This document shows positions 13,173-19,257 of a stretch of 52,894 bases of DNA, piece by piece. Below the pieces are notes generated by a model. The model had not been told where the DNA came from. It did not search any database and worked only from the letters and a program-made list of their open reading frames with translations. The stretch lies in NCBI GenBank assembly GCA_018659585.1, contig JABJMC010000016.1, forward strand, positions 1 through 52,894, given 5' to 3'. The position numbers and the translations under genes were made by a program. Each line of letters begins with the position of its first letter. The stretch's first letter is position 1. The stretch is from Candidatus Peregrinibacteria bacterium. GTDB lineage: Bacteria > Patescibacteriota > Gracilibacteria > UBA1369 > UBA12473.

Positions 13173-14015
13173 ATGTCAATGGCTGCCACAAAAACTGGCC
13201 CAGGTGAGGACTCCCCAGATGAGGGTGTATTGGAAGAGGGTTCAACTCCACAAGCTTCAGTGCCTGAAGCGACTGCTGATATAGCTAAAATCTTGGAAGA
13301 TGCGGTAGCTGCTTTGAAAGAGGCGCCAACAACCAAAGAGGGGGTTCAGGTTATGATTGATGAGGGTAAGGCTCCAAGGGCTATTACTAAGGTTTTATTA
13401 TCAGTTCGAAAAAGATTGTGTCCTAATACCTCTAAAGGAGGAATGGAGCCTACGGTAAAAATCCCAGAGGCTTTAGCAATGTTGGATGAGATTAGAGAAG
13501 GAGAGGTTGGTATTAGTTTAGTAGAGGCTTATAGAGCTTTTAATAAGGCATATTTAGTGTGGAAAAAAGAGAGGGAGGGTGAAACTGAGTTGTATTTAAA
13601 GTGGCGTATATTAAAAAGAGATTATTGTAGAAAGAGAGGGGCGTTTAATTGCGCAAAAAGAGAGTTTGATGAGGTTTATTCAGCTCATGATGGTAAAAAT
13701 AACCCTGATGAGCCTGAGATAAAGACGGCAAGAGACGTAATGACTTTAGCGAAGGGAGTGTATAGATTAGCGGAATCAGCTTTAGCGCCAGTTCGCGAAG
13801 CCTTAATGGCTGAGCGTCGTGCTGCTAAATTAGAACGTGATCGAGTATGGAGGGCTAGATTTCCAAAGCCATTATGCGAAGGAGGCCTACCTCCTGAAGA
13901 TAAAGAAGTAGTGCCAGCGCAAACCGATGATGCTGATGAAGGAGAAGAGGTCCCAAGTGATGATGTGACGGATGACACGATGGATGGTAATAGTTGGTTT
14001 GTTGATGAAGAGTAG
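13173..14015 (+). CDS. Hypothetical acidic-ended protein
   Basis: 280 residues with no recognised domain. The first ~40 residues are acidic and Gly/Pro/Ser-rich, probably disordered; residues ~40-235 are mostly charged and helical with a Lys/Arg-rich middle; the last ~45 residues are strongly acidic (DDADEGEEV, DDVTDD) ending in WFVDEE. There is no signal peptide or membrane segment. It has its own strong promoters and is followed by folK after 22 bases with a separate -10, so it is not clearly co-regulated with the pterin gene. Confidence 0.7.
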   Translation: MSMAATKTGPGEDSPDEGVLEEGSTPQASVPEATADIAKILEDAVAALKEAPTTKEGVQVMIDEGKAPRAITKVLLSVRKRLCPNTSKGGMEPTVKIPEALAMLDEIREGEVGISLVEAYRAFNKAYLVWKKEREGETELYLKWRILKRDYCRKRGAFNCAKREFDEVYSAHDGKNNPDEPEIKTARDVMTLAKGVYRLAESALAPVREALMAERRAAKLERDRVWRARFPKPLCEGGLPPEDKEVVPAQTDDADEGEEVPSDDVTDDTMDGNSWFVDEE

Positions 14016-14037: not shown

Positions 14038-14544
14038 ATGATAAATTGCTTTTTAAGTTTGGGGTCGAATTTGGGGGATTGTGTGGGTAATTTAAAGCGA
14101 GCCAAAAATCGGCTAGTAGAATTGGGAGTGGAGATTGTAGAAGAATCGTCTATTTATGAATCTGAGCCAGTGGTGGATTGTCCGGAAGATGCAAGTCAGC
14201 CTTGGTTTTTGAATCAGGTTATTAAAATTGAAACTAAAATTGTGCCGCAAGATTTATTAAAAATTTGTAAAAAAATTGAGGAGGAATTAGGACGTGAATC
14301 AAAAAAAACCTTAGAGCAAAATAATTTTTTGGATAAAGATGGAAAACGTCGTTATTTTCCTCGAGAAATAGATATAGATATTTTGATTTATGGAGAAGAA
14401 AAAATTAATGATCCAAATTTAAAAATTCCACATCCTCGTTTAAAAGAACGAAAGTTTGTTTTGATGCCGTTAGCAGAAATTGATAAAGAGTATGCCCCTC
14501 TCTTGAGGGCTTGCTTAGATTCCGCTACAGTACGTTTACTATGA
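14038..14544 (+). CDS. folK: 2-amino-4-hydroxy-6-hydroxymethyldihydropteridine pyrophosphokinase
   Basis: Transfers pyrophosphate from ATP to hydroxymethyl-dihydropterin, the step before FolP. The 168-residue protein shows SLGSNLGD at 6-13, SSIYESEPV, FLNQV, IEEELGR, PREIDIDILIYG (Mg-binding Asp pair) and IPHPRLKERKFVLMPLAEI. The catalytic loop has a somewhat long insertion (KKTLEQNNFLDKDGKRRYF). Its TGA stop overlaps the next ATG as ATGA, indicating translational coupling to the transketolase-like gene. Confidence 0.95.
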   Translation: MINCFLSLGSNLGDCVGNLKRAKNRLVELGVEIVEESSIYESEPVVDCPEDASQPWFLNQVIKIETKIVPQDLLKICKKIEEELGRESKKTLEQNNFLDKDGKRRYFPREIDIDILIYGEEKINDPNLKIPHPRLKERKFVLMPLAEIDKEYAPLLRACLDSATVRLL

Positions 14545-15299
14545 CTACCACCTTTCGATTAGATATTTTGGAAATGATTAATCGCTCCAAAACAGGCGAT
14601 GTTGGGTTGGCATTTTCATACGCTGATTTAGTGGAGGCTCTTTATTTTGGAGATTCTCACGGGCAGTCTGTTTTGAAATATGATGCAGCTAAGCCGCAGT
14701 GGGAGGGCCGAGATTATGTAGTTTTGTCTAATCCAGAAGCTTGGCCGGTTTTTGAGGTGGCTTTGAAAAAAGCTGGTTTTTTGGATGAAATATTGTCATC
14801 AAAAAAGTGTTTAAAAATTCCCGGATTAGAAATGGCTTTTAAATCACCAGGTCAGGGTTTGTCAGTGGCTTATGGTGTGGCGCAATCTTTACAAATAAGC
14901 AAAAAAAAGAATCGAATTTATGTGCTTTTGGATGATGAAGATTTGAAAAATGGACAGGCTTGGGAGGCGATAATGGGGATTGCTTATGATCGGTTAAGTT
15001 CGGTAATGGCTATTTGTAGTCATAGTGGGACGTCTAAATTAGAACCACTTCAAGATAAGTTTGAGGCTTTTGGATGGAAAGTATTTAAATTAATGAATGG
15101 GCATGATCAGAATGAGATTTTGAATACGATTGCTAAAGCTAAACAAGTTGAACGACAGCCAGTTTTATTGTTGGCGCCAACAGTTTTAGGTAAGGGAATC
15201 CCGTTCATGGAAGGAAAGCAACAATATAAAGGAGCTCTTTTTTCTGAAGCTGAAATGGAGGAAGCAGTTGAAATTCTTAAAGCCCAGAATGATGCTTAA
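14541..15299 (+). CDS. Transketolase N-terminal-domain homologue lacking catalytic residues
   Basis: 252 residues that follow the N-terminal (diphosphate-binding) half of transketolase from end to end, but with every recognisable active-site landmark changed: KSGHPG reads KTGDVG, LSNGH reads LSNPE, GDG...EG reads DDEDLKNG, the metal-binding Asn region (YDDNG) reads CSHSG, and the late His (HGAP) reads YKGA. Neutral fold positions such as FEAFGW, NGHD and TVLGKG are kept. Thiamine diphosphate binding is therefore unlikely. The frame is clean and coupled by ATGA to folK. The matching pyrimidine-domain half is at 15752-16183. It is probably a pseudoenzyme or has a different ligand; the fold assignment is firm, the function unknown. 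Confidence 0.75.
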   Translation: MTTTFRLDILEMINRSKTGDVGLAFSYADLVEALYFGDSHGQSVLKYDAAKPQWEGRDYVVLSNPEAWPVFEVALKKAGFLDEILSSKKCLKIPGLEMAFKSPGQGLSVAYGVAQSLQISKKKNRIYVLLDDEDLKNGQAWEAIMGIAYDRLSSVMAICSHSGTSKLEPLQDKFEAFGWKVFKLMNGHDQNEILNTIAKAKQVERQPVLLLAPTVLGKGIPFMEGKQQYKGALFSEAEMEEAVEILKAQNDA

Positions 15300-15762
15300 A
15301 AAGCTGGGGGTTTTTATTTTTTTAATTCTATTAAGCGGTTGTTCTCATATAAATAACACTAGTAATATGCCAACAATTTCTATAAATGATACTCATGAGT
15401 TTGAAGTGACGATTGCGGATAGTAATGAGGAAAGAATGAGTGGTTTGCAGCACGTTAGTGATCTTAAAAATAACGAAGGAATGTGGTTTGTGTTTGATGC
15501 TCCACAAGTATTGAGTTTTTGGATGAAAGACACATTAATTTCGCTGGATATTATTTTTGTAAATGAGAATTTAGAGATAATTAATATTGCGGAAAACGTA
15601 CCACCGTGTCGGGAAGCCAGTCCGGAGCAATTGTTTTGTGAGAGTTATTTTTCGGATGAACCAGCTAGTTATGTTTTGGAAATAAATGGTGGTCTTTCTG
15701 AGGAGTTAGGAATTCTTAAGGGTGATGTTATTAAACTTTTAAATTTTGAAGATGCTGTCTAA
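15289..15762 (+). CDS. DUF192 lipoprotein
   Basis: 157 residues. A signal peptide (LKKLGVFIFLILLSGC) with lipobox LSGC places it on the outer face of the membrane. The rest is a DUF192 domain, with the typical R-x-x-GL-x-x (ERMSGLQHV), GMWFVF, FWMKDT.ISLDIIFV and an S/C-containing P-C-R region; the family function is not known. The ATG at 15289 (or 15292) overlaps the end of the transketolase-like gene, and its own end overlaps the next gene by 11 bases, so it is embedded in the operon between the two halves of the transketolase homologue. Confidence 0.85.
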   Translation: MMLKKLGVFIFLILLSGCSHINNTSNMPTISINDTHEFEVTIADSNEERMSGLQHVSDLKNNEGMWFVFDAPQVLSFWMKDTLISLDIIFVNENLEIINIAENVPPCREASPEQLFCESYFSDEPASYVLEINGGLSEELGILKGDVIKLLNFEDAV

Positions 15763-16183
15763 TGTTTTTTTTGATGAATTAATTAAAGTAGGAGTTCGTT
15801 ATAAGAACTGGGTGGTGTTGGATGCGCGGGATTCTTTTTATGGGGAAAATGATTTTAAGAAAGTTTTTGGGGAGCGGTATATTGAAGTTGATTTAAAGGG
15901 GATTTGTATAAATCAGGCCGTGGGGTTAGCGTTAACTGGAAAAATTCCGATTGTATTAGGGGGTGCGGAAATGTTTTTGAATAGTTTAAAAGAGATTCAA
16001 GATAATTTGTCGGGAAATTGTTTAAATATAAAAATGGTGGGGATAGGGGATACCAAGGCAAAGGATCATATTGAAAAATCACCTTATATGAATGTGATTG
16101 CTCCAACCAATGAAGCTGATGCAAAAACAGCCGTGCTTTCTATGATCGAAGGGTATGGGCCGATTTACGTCCATGTGATATAG
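15752..16183 (+). CDS. Transketolase pyrimidine-domain homologue, shortened
   Basis: 143 residues matching only the PYR domain of the C-terminal transketolase subunit: FFDELIKVGVRYKNWVVLDARD, RYIEVDLKGICINQAVGLALTGKIPIVLG, a mid-domain VGIGD stretch, NVIAPTNEADAK and PIYVHV. The invariant catalytic Glu of the GIAEQ/GVREF motif is missing (Gly-Ile-Cys-Ile-Asn there), the usual His residues are absent, and the C-terminal third domain of a ~310-residue TktB subunit is not encoded anywhere nearby. With the 14541 gene it makes a two-subunit pseudo-transketolase. The next gene is prs, so a role sensing or channelling pentose phosphates is conceivable but only inferred. Confidence 0.65.
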   Translation: MLSNVFFDELIKVGVRYKNWVVLDARDSFYGENDFKKVFGERYIEVDLKGICINQAVGLALTGKIPIVLGGAEMFLNSLKEIQDNLSGNCLNIKMVGIGDTKAKDHIEKSPYMNVIAPTNEADAKTAVLSMIEGYGPIYVHVI

Positions 16184-16184: not shown

Positions 16185-16211
16185 TTGGTCGAAAATTTGA
16201 CCCTTCCAAAA

Positions 16212-17162
16212 ATGCCTCCAAAAAAATCTAAGTTAAAAATCTACTCGGGTAGCTCACACCCGGCTTTGGCGAAAGAAATTGCCAAAGCATTAAAAGTGAA
16301 ATTGTCGGAAATGGATATTCAGCGGTTTGCTAATGGTGAAATTTACGCTAAGCCGATGGATACAGTCCGTGGTTGTGATGTTTATGTGATTCAATCTGCC
16401 TCACGCAATGTAAATGAAGATATGATGGAATTGTTTGTGATGTTGGATTCTTTTAAACGGTCGTTTGCCAGGAGTATTCATGTGGTTTTACCTTCTTATC
16501 CGTATGCGCGGCAGGACCGTGTGGCTACGCCGCGGGAACCTATTTCAGCTAAATTAATGGCGGATTTAATTTCGGCAGCTGGGGCAACACACGTCATTAC
16601 TTTGTCTCTTCATTCTGGACAAACACAAGGATTTTTTGATTCACCAGTGGATAATATTCATACTCATCATTTGTTTGTGAATTATTTTAAAAAGAAAAAG
16701 TTAAAGGATTTAGTGGTGGTCTCACCAGATGCTGGTGGAGGTAAATCAGCTAAGCGTTTGGCAGAGCCGCTGGGTGCAAGGTTAGCCATTGTAAACAAAA
16801 TGCGACCTAAGCATAACAAGGCAGTAGCGCACTCAATTGTGGGTGATGTAAAAGGAAAAACATGTATTTTGTTAGATGACATGATTGATACGGGTGGCTC
16901 AATTATTGCGGCTCGTGAAGCTTTGATTAAAGCAGGTGCAAAGAAAGATATTTACGTGGCAGCAACGCACGCGGTTTTTTCACCGCCTTGTGTGGATCGG
17001 TTCAAAGAAGCTGGATTTAAGGAAATTGTAGTTACAAATTCTTTACCAATCCCAGAAGCAAAGAAACTTAAAAATTTAAAACAGATTTCAGTAGCGCCAC
17101 TTATCGCAAGTGTAGTTAAGAATGTTCATGAGGCGCGTTCAGTTACCGGTATTTGGAAATAA
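16212..17162 (+). CDS. prs: Ribose-phosphate pyrophosphokinase (PRPP synthase)
   Basis: Makes PRPP from ribose 5-phosphate and ATP for nucleotide synthesis. At 316 residues it is full length: KIYSGSSHP start, FANGEIY, PSYPYARQDR, SLHSGQTQGFFD, VVSPDAGGGKSAKRLA and the PRPP loop LLDDMIDTGGSI. The usual D-L-H-S-x-Q-I reads S-L-H-S-G-Q-T. The ATG at 16212 gives the expected N-terminus; a TTG at 16185 would add nine residues and is not favoured. rpiB follows after 15 bases, so supply of ribose 5-phosphate and its use are encoded together. Confidence 0.95.
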   Translation: MPPKKSKLKIYSGSSHPALAKEIAKALKVKLSEMDIQRFANGEIYAKPMDTVRGCDVYVIQSASRNVNEDMMELFVMLDSFKRSFARSIHVVLPSYPYARQDRVATPREPISAKLMADLISAAGATHVITLSLHSGQTQGFFDSPVDNIHTHHLFVNYFKKKKLKDLVVVSPDAGGGKSAKRLAEPLGARLAIVNKMRPKHNKAVAHSIVGDVKGKTCILLDDMIDTGGSIIAAREALIKAGAKKDIYVAATHAVFSPPCVDRFKEAGFKEIVVTNSLPIPEAKKLKNLKQISVAPLIASVVKNVHEARSVTGIWK

Positions 17163-17177
17163 TTAAATTAAAAAAAT

Positions 17178-17627
17178 ATGCTTATTTATATTGGTTCAGA
17201 TCACGCGGGATACAATTTTAAGGGAGTTTTAAAAGATCATATGGAGGCGCAAAGTCACGAAGTAATAGATTTAGGAGCTTTTAGTGAGGATAGTGTTGAT
17301 TATCCAGATATTGCGCGTGAAGTAGCGGAAAAAGTTTATGAAAATCATGCGTCGTTTGGGATTTTGGTTTGTGGAACTGGGACAGGGATGAGTATTGCCG
17401 CGAATAAACACATTGGCATTCGAGCAGCATCTTGTACTAGCGAAATTATGGCGCAGTATGCACGGACTCATAACAATGCGAATGTTCTTTGTATTGGTGA
17501 ACGTATTTTGGAAAACGAGGAAGATGCCAAAAAAATTGTAGATGTGTTTTTGGGATCTGAGTTTGAAGGCGGGCGTCATCAAGATAGAGTAGATAAAATG
17601 ATGGCTATGGAAAAAGAGGGGAGATAG
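17178..17627 (+). CDS. rpiB: Ribose 5-phosphate isomerase B
   Basis: Interconverts ribulose 5-phosphate and ribose 5-phosphate. The 149-residue protein has IGSDHAGYNFK at the start, SVDYPD, the catalytic-Cys motif CGTGTGMSIAANK and ARTHNNANVLCIGER, all typical of RpiB. It stands 15 bases after prs and ends 2 bases before the convergent VapC gene. Confidence 0.95.
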   Translation: MLIYIGSDHAGYNFKGVLKDHMEAQSHEVIDLGAFSEDSVDYPDIAREVAEKVYENHASFGILVCGTGTGMSIAANKHIGIRAASCTSEIMAQYARTHNNANVLCIGERILENEEDAKKIVDVFLGSEFEGGRHQDRVDKMMAMEKEGR

Positions 17628-17629
17628 TT

Positions 17630-18031
17630 TTAGCGAAGGAATTCTATTTTTAGATTTGGCTCGTTTTTGGCAATAATTTCTAATTCGTGACGATCGCAAG
17701 TTAGGAAGGTTGTGTCGGCGAATTTACTAAAAGCTAACCCAATACTATCGGCGAGTGATAGGTGGTATTTAGTTTTTAAATAACGTGAGTAATTAGTAAT
17801 TTCCTCTGTTAAAAGTTGAGCTACGGTTATAGGAAGATGTTTTAAGATTTTTTTAGATTGGGGCCATAAATGAGGAAATTTTATTTTAGATTTATATTCT
17901 ACTTCTAAAAAATTAATGCTGTGCATAAAGGGCCGAGAGTTGCTTTTAAGGATTTTTTTTAATTTTTCATGGCCTTTTTCTTTTTGAGTAAAAGCCATTA
18001 AAGCTGAGGCATCCAAAGTATAGGCAATCAT
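17630..18031 (-). CDS. vapC: VapC-type PIN-domain toxin
   Basis: A 133-residue PIN-domain ribonuclease. Acidic residues expected in the active site are seen in YTLDASAL (Asp near the N-terminus), INFLEVEY (Glu), SLADSIGLA and TCDRHE. VapC toxins cut specific RNAs, often tRNA, unless bound by their antitoxin. Its start overlaps the end of the antitoxin gene by 4 bases, the usual coupled arrangement. Confidence 0.88.
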   Translation of the reverse strand: MIAYTLDASALMAFTQKEKGHEKLKKILKSNSRPFMHSINFLEVEYKSKIKFPHLWPQSKKILKHLPITVAQLLTEEITNYSRYLKTKYHLSLADSIGLAFSKFADTTFLTCDRHELEIIAKNEPNLKIEFLR

Positions 18032-18303
18032 TTTGAATTAGGTTTAAGGGTGCGATATTCTTTTTCGACTTCTTTGTGCTTTTCGGCTAGATATTCTTCA
18101 AGCATGTCGCTCCCAGCGAACATTCCACAGGCTTCATCAACCCAGTCATTAGTGGTTTTTTCGTTGTTTACAGGGTAAAGGAGTATAACGTTATTTTCAG
18201 TGTCAACCTCCCATTCAATTTTAGTGCCAGGTTCTATTTTGAATTTTTTGCGGATAGGCATGGGGATGGTGGCTTGTCCTTTTGGTGAGACAGATGTGTT
18301 CAT
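18028..18303 (-). CDS. vapB: AbrB/SpoVT-type antitoxin (VapB)
   Basis: 91 residues with an N-terminal swapped-hairpin DNA-binding domain, VSPKGQATIPMPIRKKFKI.PG (AbrB/MazE pattern), and an acidic C-terminal tail that would wrap the toxin. It is first in the operon and coupled to vapC. An inverted repeat just upstream (18312-18339) is a likely site for autorepression. Confidence 0.87.
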   Translation of the reverse strand: MNTSVSPKGQATIPMPIRKKFKIEPGTKIEWEVDTENNVILLYPVNNEKTTNDWVDEACGMFAGSDMLEEYLAEKHKEVEKEYRTLKPNSK

Positions 18304-18591: not shown

Positions 18592-19257
18592 ATGCAAACT
18601 TCGTCACAGCATCATATTTCTCAGGAGAATCATGTAAAAATTGGGCCATCAATACTTTCCGCTGATTTTGGAAAATTAAATGAAGAGGTTGCGACTGTTG
18701 ATGAATACGCGGATTTTATTCATGCGGATGTGATGGACGGGCATTTTGTGCCAAATTTGACGTTTGGGGCACCGGTAGTGGCAAAATTACAGAGTAAATT
18801 ACCAGTTGAATGTCATTTAATGATTAGTGAGCCAGAAAAATATGTAGAAGATTTTGTAAAGGCTGGGGCGTGGATGATTACAATTCATGTTGAGGCTTGC
18901 TCCGAAAAAACAGGTGAAGTTTTGGAGCAAATTCGGGGATTAGGAGTGAAAGTTGGACTTTCTTTGAATCCCGGAACAAAAGTTGAGGAAATTGAGCCGT
19001 ATTTGGATATGGTGGATATGGTGTTAGTGATGACAGTGGAACCTGGGTTTGGAGGGCAATCATTTATGCATGAGTGTTTAAATAAGATTAAATGGGTGCG
19101 CGAAAAGAAGCCAAATTTAGCAATTTGTGTGGATGGGGGAGTAAAGGATGATACCGCTAAATTATGTGTAGAAGCGGGAGCAAATATGTTGGTGGCAGGT
19201 TCGTATATTTTTGGAGCAGAAGATCGGAAGGAGGCGATTGAATCACTCAGAGGTTGA
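18592..19257 (+). CDS. rpe: Ribulose-phosphate 3-epimerase
   Basis: Interconverts ribulose 5-phosphate and xylulose 5-phosphate. The 221-residue TIM barrel has IGPSILSADFGKL, HADVMDGHFVPNLTFG, CHLMI, a VEPGFGGQSF phosphate loop and a final VDGGV, i.e. the metal-binding His/Asp residues and the catalytic Asp pair. The first ~15 residues (MQTSSQHHISQENH) precede the conserved start and may be a natural extension or a mis-chosen start. rpe, rpiB and prs together cover pentose-phosphate interconversion and PRPP supply. Confidence 0.95.
   Translation: MQTSSQHHISQENHVKIGPSILSADFGKLNEEVATVDEYADFIHADVMDGHFVPNLTFGAPVVAKLQSKLPVECHLMISEPEKYVEDFVKAGAWMITIHVEACSEKTGEVLEQIRGLGVKVGLSLNPGTKVEEIEPYLDMVDMVLVMTVEPGFGGQSFMHECLNKIKWVREKKPNLAICVDGGVKDDTAKLCVEAGANMLVAGSYIFGAEDRKEAIESLRG

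Follow-up and report, generated by a model that had tools for sequence, protein, structure and literature searches.

A probable pseudoenzyme descended from a split transketolase beside the prs and rpiB genes of a Candidatus Peregrinibacteria bacterium

Introduction

The closest described system to the one considered here is the split-gene transketolase of Carboxydothermus hydrogenoformans, which has been solved (PDB 6yak and 6yaj), binds thiamine diphosphate (ThDP) and calcium, and is active (PMC7661550). When isolated, its N subunit is a dimer on gel filtration, with a small interface, and is inactive alone (PMC7661550). In humans, a deletion mimic of TKTL1 neither binds thiamin nor is active (PMC3485151), and the inactivity of TKTL1 itself is disputed (PMC6334435). 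Here we describe a locus in a Candidatus Peregrinibacteria bacterium (assembly GCA_018659585.1, contig JABJMC010000016.1), on a stretch of 52,894 nucleotides referred to below as the window. Two of its genes, pseudo-tktN and pseudo-tktC, lie between folK and prs-rpiB and are separated by a DUF192 lipoprotein gene; their products are called N and C. Comparison with related genomes makes it highly probable that this pair is a conserved pseudoenzyme descended from the operon's own split transketolase. Split transketolases and the debated, inactive TKTL1 are already known, and the new element would be a bacterial pseudo-transketolase, of which none was found in the open-access full-text literature, subscription papers lying outside that coverage.

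Results

The first-pass annotation of the window had read the two genes as the diphosphate-binding (PP) and pyrimidine (Pyr) domains of a transketolase, with the DUF192 lipoprotein gene between them, and Pfam, profile, PDB and fold matches bear this out. N matches Pfam Transketolase_N at 1.7e-20 and the NCBIfam transketolase NF004559 at 2.5e-39, and its best sequence match in the PDB is 6yak (5.7e-35). Its AlphaFold2 (AF2) model, with a predicted local distance difference test (pLDDT) score of 83.7, again finds 6yak as the best Foldseek hit among PDB chains (E 2.3e-21, template modelling (TM) score 0.87). C is weak by Pfam alone (Transket_pyr 0.0065, under the Pfam cut-off); profile comparison with intact split-transketolase C subunits gives a probability of 98.5 and an E of 3.4e-15, and its AF2 model (pLDDT 82.9) is matched best among PDB chains by 6yaj (E 8.8e-8). 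The single-chain models of both proteins are thus most like the Carboxydothermus split transketolase, and neither pointed away from a transketolase structure. Chance similarity or a non-transketolase fold is ruled out by the same four kinds of search. We also rejected 1-deoxy-D-xylulose-5-phosphate synthase, as DXP_synthase_N is matched at 4.1e-6 versus 1.7e-20 for Transketolase_N and the NCBIfam dxs matches fall far under the cut-off.

Replacements in these proteins were mapped using the numbering of the Carboxydothermus N subunit (ChTK-N) and its published contact list (PMC7661550). In the window's N, three His are replaced (that of SGHPG by Asp20, that of LQGHP by Lys88 and the late His of YHG by Lys230), as are ThDP and metal contacts (Lys68 by Asn64, His70 by Glu66, Gly117 by Lys101, Leu119 by Pro103, Gly149 by Glu133, Asn178 by Ser162 and Lys240 by Leu), and the loop following the Asn178 position is deleted. 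Only the metal Asp (Asp132 in DDED) is kept among the ThDP and metal contacts, with Glu150 changed to Asp134. C reads DLKGICINQ where GIAEQ would supply the catalytic Glu, its segment for the later His is shorter, and it has no third (TKC) domain, ending at 143 amino acids versus about 310 in intact relatives. The earlier claim that the landmark residues are gone therefore holds for the His of SGHPG and of LSNGH, the late His, the metal Asn and the Glu of GIAEQ, and the claimed absence of the third domain holds as well, but the Asp of GDG is retained and only its two Gly are lost. Because residues for ThDP, metal and substrate, the catalytic Glu and the third domain have all been lost, thiamine chemistry by the window pair appears very unlikely. 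Taken with the fold searches, the residue mapping favours the earlier suggestion of a fold kept without thiamine chemistry. Three defining features of a transketolase, namely the third domain, the ThDP/metal motif and the catalytic Glu, are absent, and we therefore class the pair, by its sequence, as a pseudoenzyme from a split transketolase and not as a transketolase.

To place this state in its history, 89 genomes of the order were searched and 71 were scored (genomes, families, contigs and loci carry G, f, C and L numbers below). In 70 of the 89, an N subunit belonging to this class was matched at E below 1e-93, and G036 and G080 add two divergent or broken copies. Wherever the flanks are readable, most copies are housed in an operon of the order folK-N-(DUF192)-C-prs-rpiB-rpe, the DUF192 position being kept in many relatives. 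Scored at nine positions in N and seven in C, 50 of the 71 are degenerate and 21 are without catalytic loss, although for a few of the latter the C gene is on a different contig or outside the flank retrieved. Intact operon orthologs (e.g. G005, G008, G039 and G040) keep HHHGDGENH in N and DEFHDHR in C. Outside the order, the N-subunit set is intact in all ten same-class relatives, and so are the four C partners that were fetched. Because 21 intact pairs occur within the order and ten intact N sets outside it, sequence comparison identifies the intact state of the operon pair as ancestral. In a sample of the phylum, a clear gap separates this class from ordinary split transketolases, with strong orthologs confined to the order. 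Degeneration as a phylum-wide trait was rejected, as strong orthologs occur in the order only and the ten class-level relatives keep the N set.

Mapped by parsimony on a maximum-likelihood N tree, the degenerate state requires 7 changes, and branches with strong support make at least 4 of these unavoidable. The ThDP set is lost in 30 genomes (10 changes) and the third domain in 21 (9 changes), these losses falling in families f1, f3, f4 and f14. In f2 (G002, G049, G059 and G068) and in G048 (f15) the C-subunit Glu was lost first, with the main His, Asp and Asn of N still present, and in most of f14 it was the substrate His that went first (to Tyr, Arg or Gln), ThDP ligands and Glu being kept. 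Two f14 genomes, G063 and G067 (L116 and L120), carry an intact pair whose N, unlike that of other f14 members, groups with f8 (support 96/91), a possible replacement by transfer.

The window's family, f1, joins f4 with support 90/89, and these two are the most rewritten families, with Glu for His70 common to all eight of their proteins. A single joint origin of their dead state is not certain, because both sit on long branches. In G001, from the sister genus and the only other f1 member sampled, N is also dead and is kept, and C is cleanly missing between DUF192 and prs (L046 4593-4673), where 81 bases are left. Relocation of the G001 C gene was considered and rejected, as a search of that genome yields only a full-length enzyme. 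The catalytically dead state is common to the window, G001 and each of the six f4 genomes. The pairs that are gutted furthest (those of f1, f4 and the f14 members with a short C) lie directly upstream of prs-rpiB-rpe wherever flanks are readable, the exception being G036 (f3).

These relatives alter how the locus should be seen. The first-pass annotation treated it as a pair; a conserved pseudo-transketolase locus is indeed found, but the pair is not obligatory, given that G001 retains N alone. Nor is the locus an isolated case: it stands at one extreme of a series of losses that runs across the order and starts from an ordinary split transketolase. It had also reasoned that relatives keeping GDG, the His residues and the Glu would make the window copy a lone decayed one. 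Many relatives do keep them, yet G001 and six f4 genomes share the dead state, and this, together with purifying selection, rules out a lone decayed copy.

The evidence for selection comes from pairwise ratios of nonsynonymous to synonymous substitution rates (dN/dS), calculated by NG86. In closely related pairs measurable outside f1, degenerate N gives 0.01-0.19, for example 0.11 in G047/G041, 0.05 in G014/G075 and 0.05 in G030/G037, the last with synonymous sites near saturation. Intact N orthologs of f8 and f13 give similar values (0.05 in both G008/G021 and G040/G051), and degenerate N is like these and like prs, rpiB and rpe. Within f4 the dead N proteins are 82-83% identical, beside 85% for prs, 74% for folK and 54-58% for C. 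Between the two f1 genomes N still has 44% identity although synonymous changes are saturated, and its neighbours are at 48% (folK) and 43% (DUF192). No stops occur inside any match listed for the order, with the exception of G080, where the N gene is broken in two. These values argue that the N subunit has been under purifying selection since the residues were lost, and, with the open frames, they agree with the earlier view that this is not simple decay. For C, dN/dS reaches 0.34, indicating weaker constraint than on N. Because C is less constrained and has been lost in G001, N is likely the working part of the pseudoenzyme.

A complete transketolase, whose presence elsewhere in the genome the first-pass annotation had asked about, was found on contig C30, adjoining pgi; it is full-length in type with all motifs, is cut at 595 amino acids by the contig end, and is about 28% identical to the window's N. 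Contig C20 carries a second split pair (L007 1955-2800), in which the N gene has one frameshift, possibly an assembly error, and the C subunit is intact. The window pair was thus rejected as the sole transketolase of the genome. The C20 pair adjoins ilvC-, aminotransferase- and serA-like genes, and C20-class copies in G008, G010, G020 and G022 have SEG for GDG, with Glu replacing the metal Asp. A PF00923 search of the window's genome found no transaldolase; transketolase, rpe and rpiB are present.

The features of the locus are collected in Table 1. The frames are clean and translationally linked to folK, as first proposed: the ATG of pseudo-tktN at 14541 overlaps the folK stop by 4 bases (ATGA), the DUF192 gene, with a lipobox LLSGC, starts inside the 3' end of pseudo-tktN, and pseudo-tktC starts inside the 3' end of the DUF192 gene. 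On the minus strand at 17630-18303, PIN-domain-like and AbrB-like genes separate rpiB from rpe, two genes that lie side by side in relatives; judged by eye, the minus-strand genes are a putative VapC/VapB-type toxin-antitoxin pair that appears inserted. Just upstream of folK (13173-14015) lies a charged open frame of 280 amino acids that is not seen there in the operons of relatives. Within the f8 operon, the DUF192 lipoprotein gene has a signal peptidase S26 gene (Pfam 3.7e-39) as its neighbour (e.g. L073 5168-5647).

Table 1. Genes and replaced codons of the pseudo-transketolase locus, in window positions
Feature	Position	Strand	Basis
folK (HPPK)	14038..14544	+	Pfam HPPK 2.4e-35; sequence
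pseudo-tktN, PP (diphosphate-binding) domain subunit, 252 aa	14541..15299	+	Pfam, PDB sequence match, AF2/Foldseek
codon of Asp20 (His of SGHPG in split transketolases)	14598..14600	+	alignment, sequence
codon of Glu66 (His of LSKGH, ChTK His70, in transketolases)	14736..14738	+	residue mapping
DDED, residues 131-134, replacing GDGE	14931..14942	+	alignment, residue mapping
codon of Lys230 (late His of YHG in transketolases)	15228..15230	+	residue mapping
DUF192 (COG1430) lipoprotein gene, between the two subunits	15289..15762 (alternative start 15292)	+	Pfam DUF192 7.1e-30; synteny
pseudo-tktC, lone Pyr domain, 143 aa	15752..16183	+	profile match, AF2/Foldseek
prs, ribose-phosphate pyrophosphokinase	16185..17162 (TTG at 16185 or ATG at 16212)	+	Pfam Pribosyltran_N 2.8e-44
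rpiB, ribose-5-phosphate isomerase B	17178..17627	+	named from sequence; conserved synteny with prs, rpe
rpe, ribulose-phosphate 3-epimerase	18592..19257	+	named from sequence; conserved synteny

Discussion

We hypothesise that the window pair is a pseudoenzyme from a once-catalytic split transketolase of the operon, with N as its working part and with a contact role linked to phosphoribosyl pyrophosphate (PRPP), an overall explanation to which we give a probability of roughly 0.6. As catalysis was lost repeatedly while selection kept the dead enzyme, the protein very probably has a different job from that of transketolase, beside the genes that make PRPP. The ancestral operon enzyme may already have had a second role, so that once another transketolase had taken over the chemistry, catalysis by the operon copy could be dropped. 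Pseudo-TktN would then act, probably as a PP-domain monomer or dimer that can do without its C partner, by contacting pentose-phosphate and PRPP enzymes as a scaffold or allosteric regulator. Such a contact-based role on PRPP enzymes would be the most likely one because N is translated together with prs-rpiB-rpe and has stayed beside these genes; this placement, directly upstream in the pairs gutted furthest, is the strongest clue. To name it specifically as a scaffold or allosteric regulator of the enzymes leading from pentose phosphates to PRPP is our leading guess, and a tentative one. More speculative still, and on balance doubtful, is the proposal that an order of small-genome bacteria has repeatedly, and independently in several families, converted a split transketolase to a non-enzymatic controller or organiser of the flux from ribose 5-phosphate to PRPP.

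Several points weigh against this explanation. The functional tie to Prs is based on gene order only, and prs does not immediately follow the degenerate pair in family f2 or in G036. Among genomes at least 90% complete, another transketolase is present in 33 of 36 with a degenerate pair and in 11 of 18 with an intact one (Fisher p 0.011), a suggestive difference that would fit a release of the operon copy from catalysis by a second enzyme, but the relatedness-controlled comparison has 4 independent pairs only, and, as counter-examples, the near-complete f2 genomes G043 and G062 have a degenerate pair with no other transketolase found. In the window's own family dN/dS is saturated and G001 is the one other member. 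The AF2 alignments contained canonical relatives, biasing the models to the canonical fold, and hence the fold match of the window models is not fully independent from the sequence match. Moreover, the sequence would still leave room for a ThDP-free reaction.

The reading that ranks second after a PRPP scaffold or regulator is that the old pocket was rebuilt for other chemistry or for another metabolite, making the pair a new enzyme or a ligand-binding or sensing protein. We consider this possible but unlikely. It would be consistent with the change of His70 to Glu throughout f1 and f4, and with the f4 pocket, where 9 of 14 positions are invariant over six genomes, four new residues are fixed (Glu for His70, Tyr for Gly149, Asp for Ile182 and Asp for the late His), and the metal Asp and Asn are kept; in one subclade of f14, 12 of 14 pocket positions are invariant and six of these are new (p 0.025). 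However, the f4 pocket shows no clear excess of conservation over the remainder of the protein (9/14 versus 46%, p 0.13), only 2 of 12 pocket positions are invariant when f1 and f4 are taken together, and in the window itself the metal Asn, Lys68 and the post-Asn loop are gone. For the window's family a re-used pocket was rejected, its conservation being no better than that of the rest of the protein. Ranked third, and rather improbable, is a regulatory partner, in which the pseudo-subunits would enter mixed assemblies and tune the full-length or the second split transketolase. Transketolase active sites do lie between domains of two chains (PMC7661550), and most degenerate genomes have another transketolase, but the type of partner varies by genome between a full-length enzyme and a second split pair, G043 and G062 show none, and the window's N has diverged far from the C30 enzyme.

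That the pair is a passenger in slow decay, its frames open only via translational coupling through to prs, seems to us quite improbable. The overlapping starts and stops from folK through C, the differing order of catalytic-residue loss between lineages, and a C that evolves fast and was lost in G001 could all be read this way; nevertheless, a passenger is expected to show a dN/dS near 1, and degenerate N in the clades other than f1 falls in the same low range as its functional neighbours. Deletion would, moreover, restore the coupling too, yet N persists in both f1 genomes and in 6 of 6 from f4. We give hardly any credence to a still-active transketolase working by an unusual route, such as a pairing of the window's N with a different C subunit. 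Retention of the fold and of the metal Asp speaks for it, as does an intact C subunit on C20, but the diphosphate and metal ligands come from N, where most are replaced, and neither subunit of the solved split enzyme is active in isolation (PMC7661550).

There is a practical consequence for annotation, as most sampled genomes of the order have a folK-prs 'transketolase' without at least part of the catalytic set, and a residue check is needed before such a gene is counted toward the pentose-phosphate pathway.

Comparison with known systems

The window pair shares with the Carboxydothermus split transketolase the same division into two genes, and that enzyme is the best PDB match of N by sequence and of both proteins by fold. 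Unlike the Carboxydothermus pair, the window pair is without nearly all of the contact residues and without the TKC domain (ChTK-C 164-312). Catalytically dead regulators of PRPP synthesis exist in mammals as the PRPP-synthetase-associated proteins; these are paralogues of Prs itself, unlike the window pair, which derives from transketolase. TKTL1 is a single-chain animal paralogue without one 38-residue block (PMC3485151, PMC6334435), whereas the window system is bacterial and divided into two genes, shows point replacements throughout, has lost a domain and originated separately several times. Studies of pseudoenzymes usually deal with single paralogues that have lost their activity. At the present locus a graded series in conserved synteny runs from the full enzyme, by way of partly depleted forms, to a gutted pair and an N-only form, and its several separate origins with continuing selection let one ask which second function outlasts the lost chemistry. 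The starting point of the series is given by the intact operon orthologs of the order, which are orthologous to the window pair by tree, occupy the same site between folK and prs-rpiB-rpe with the same split, and keep the catalytic set.
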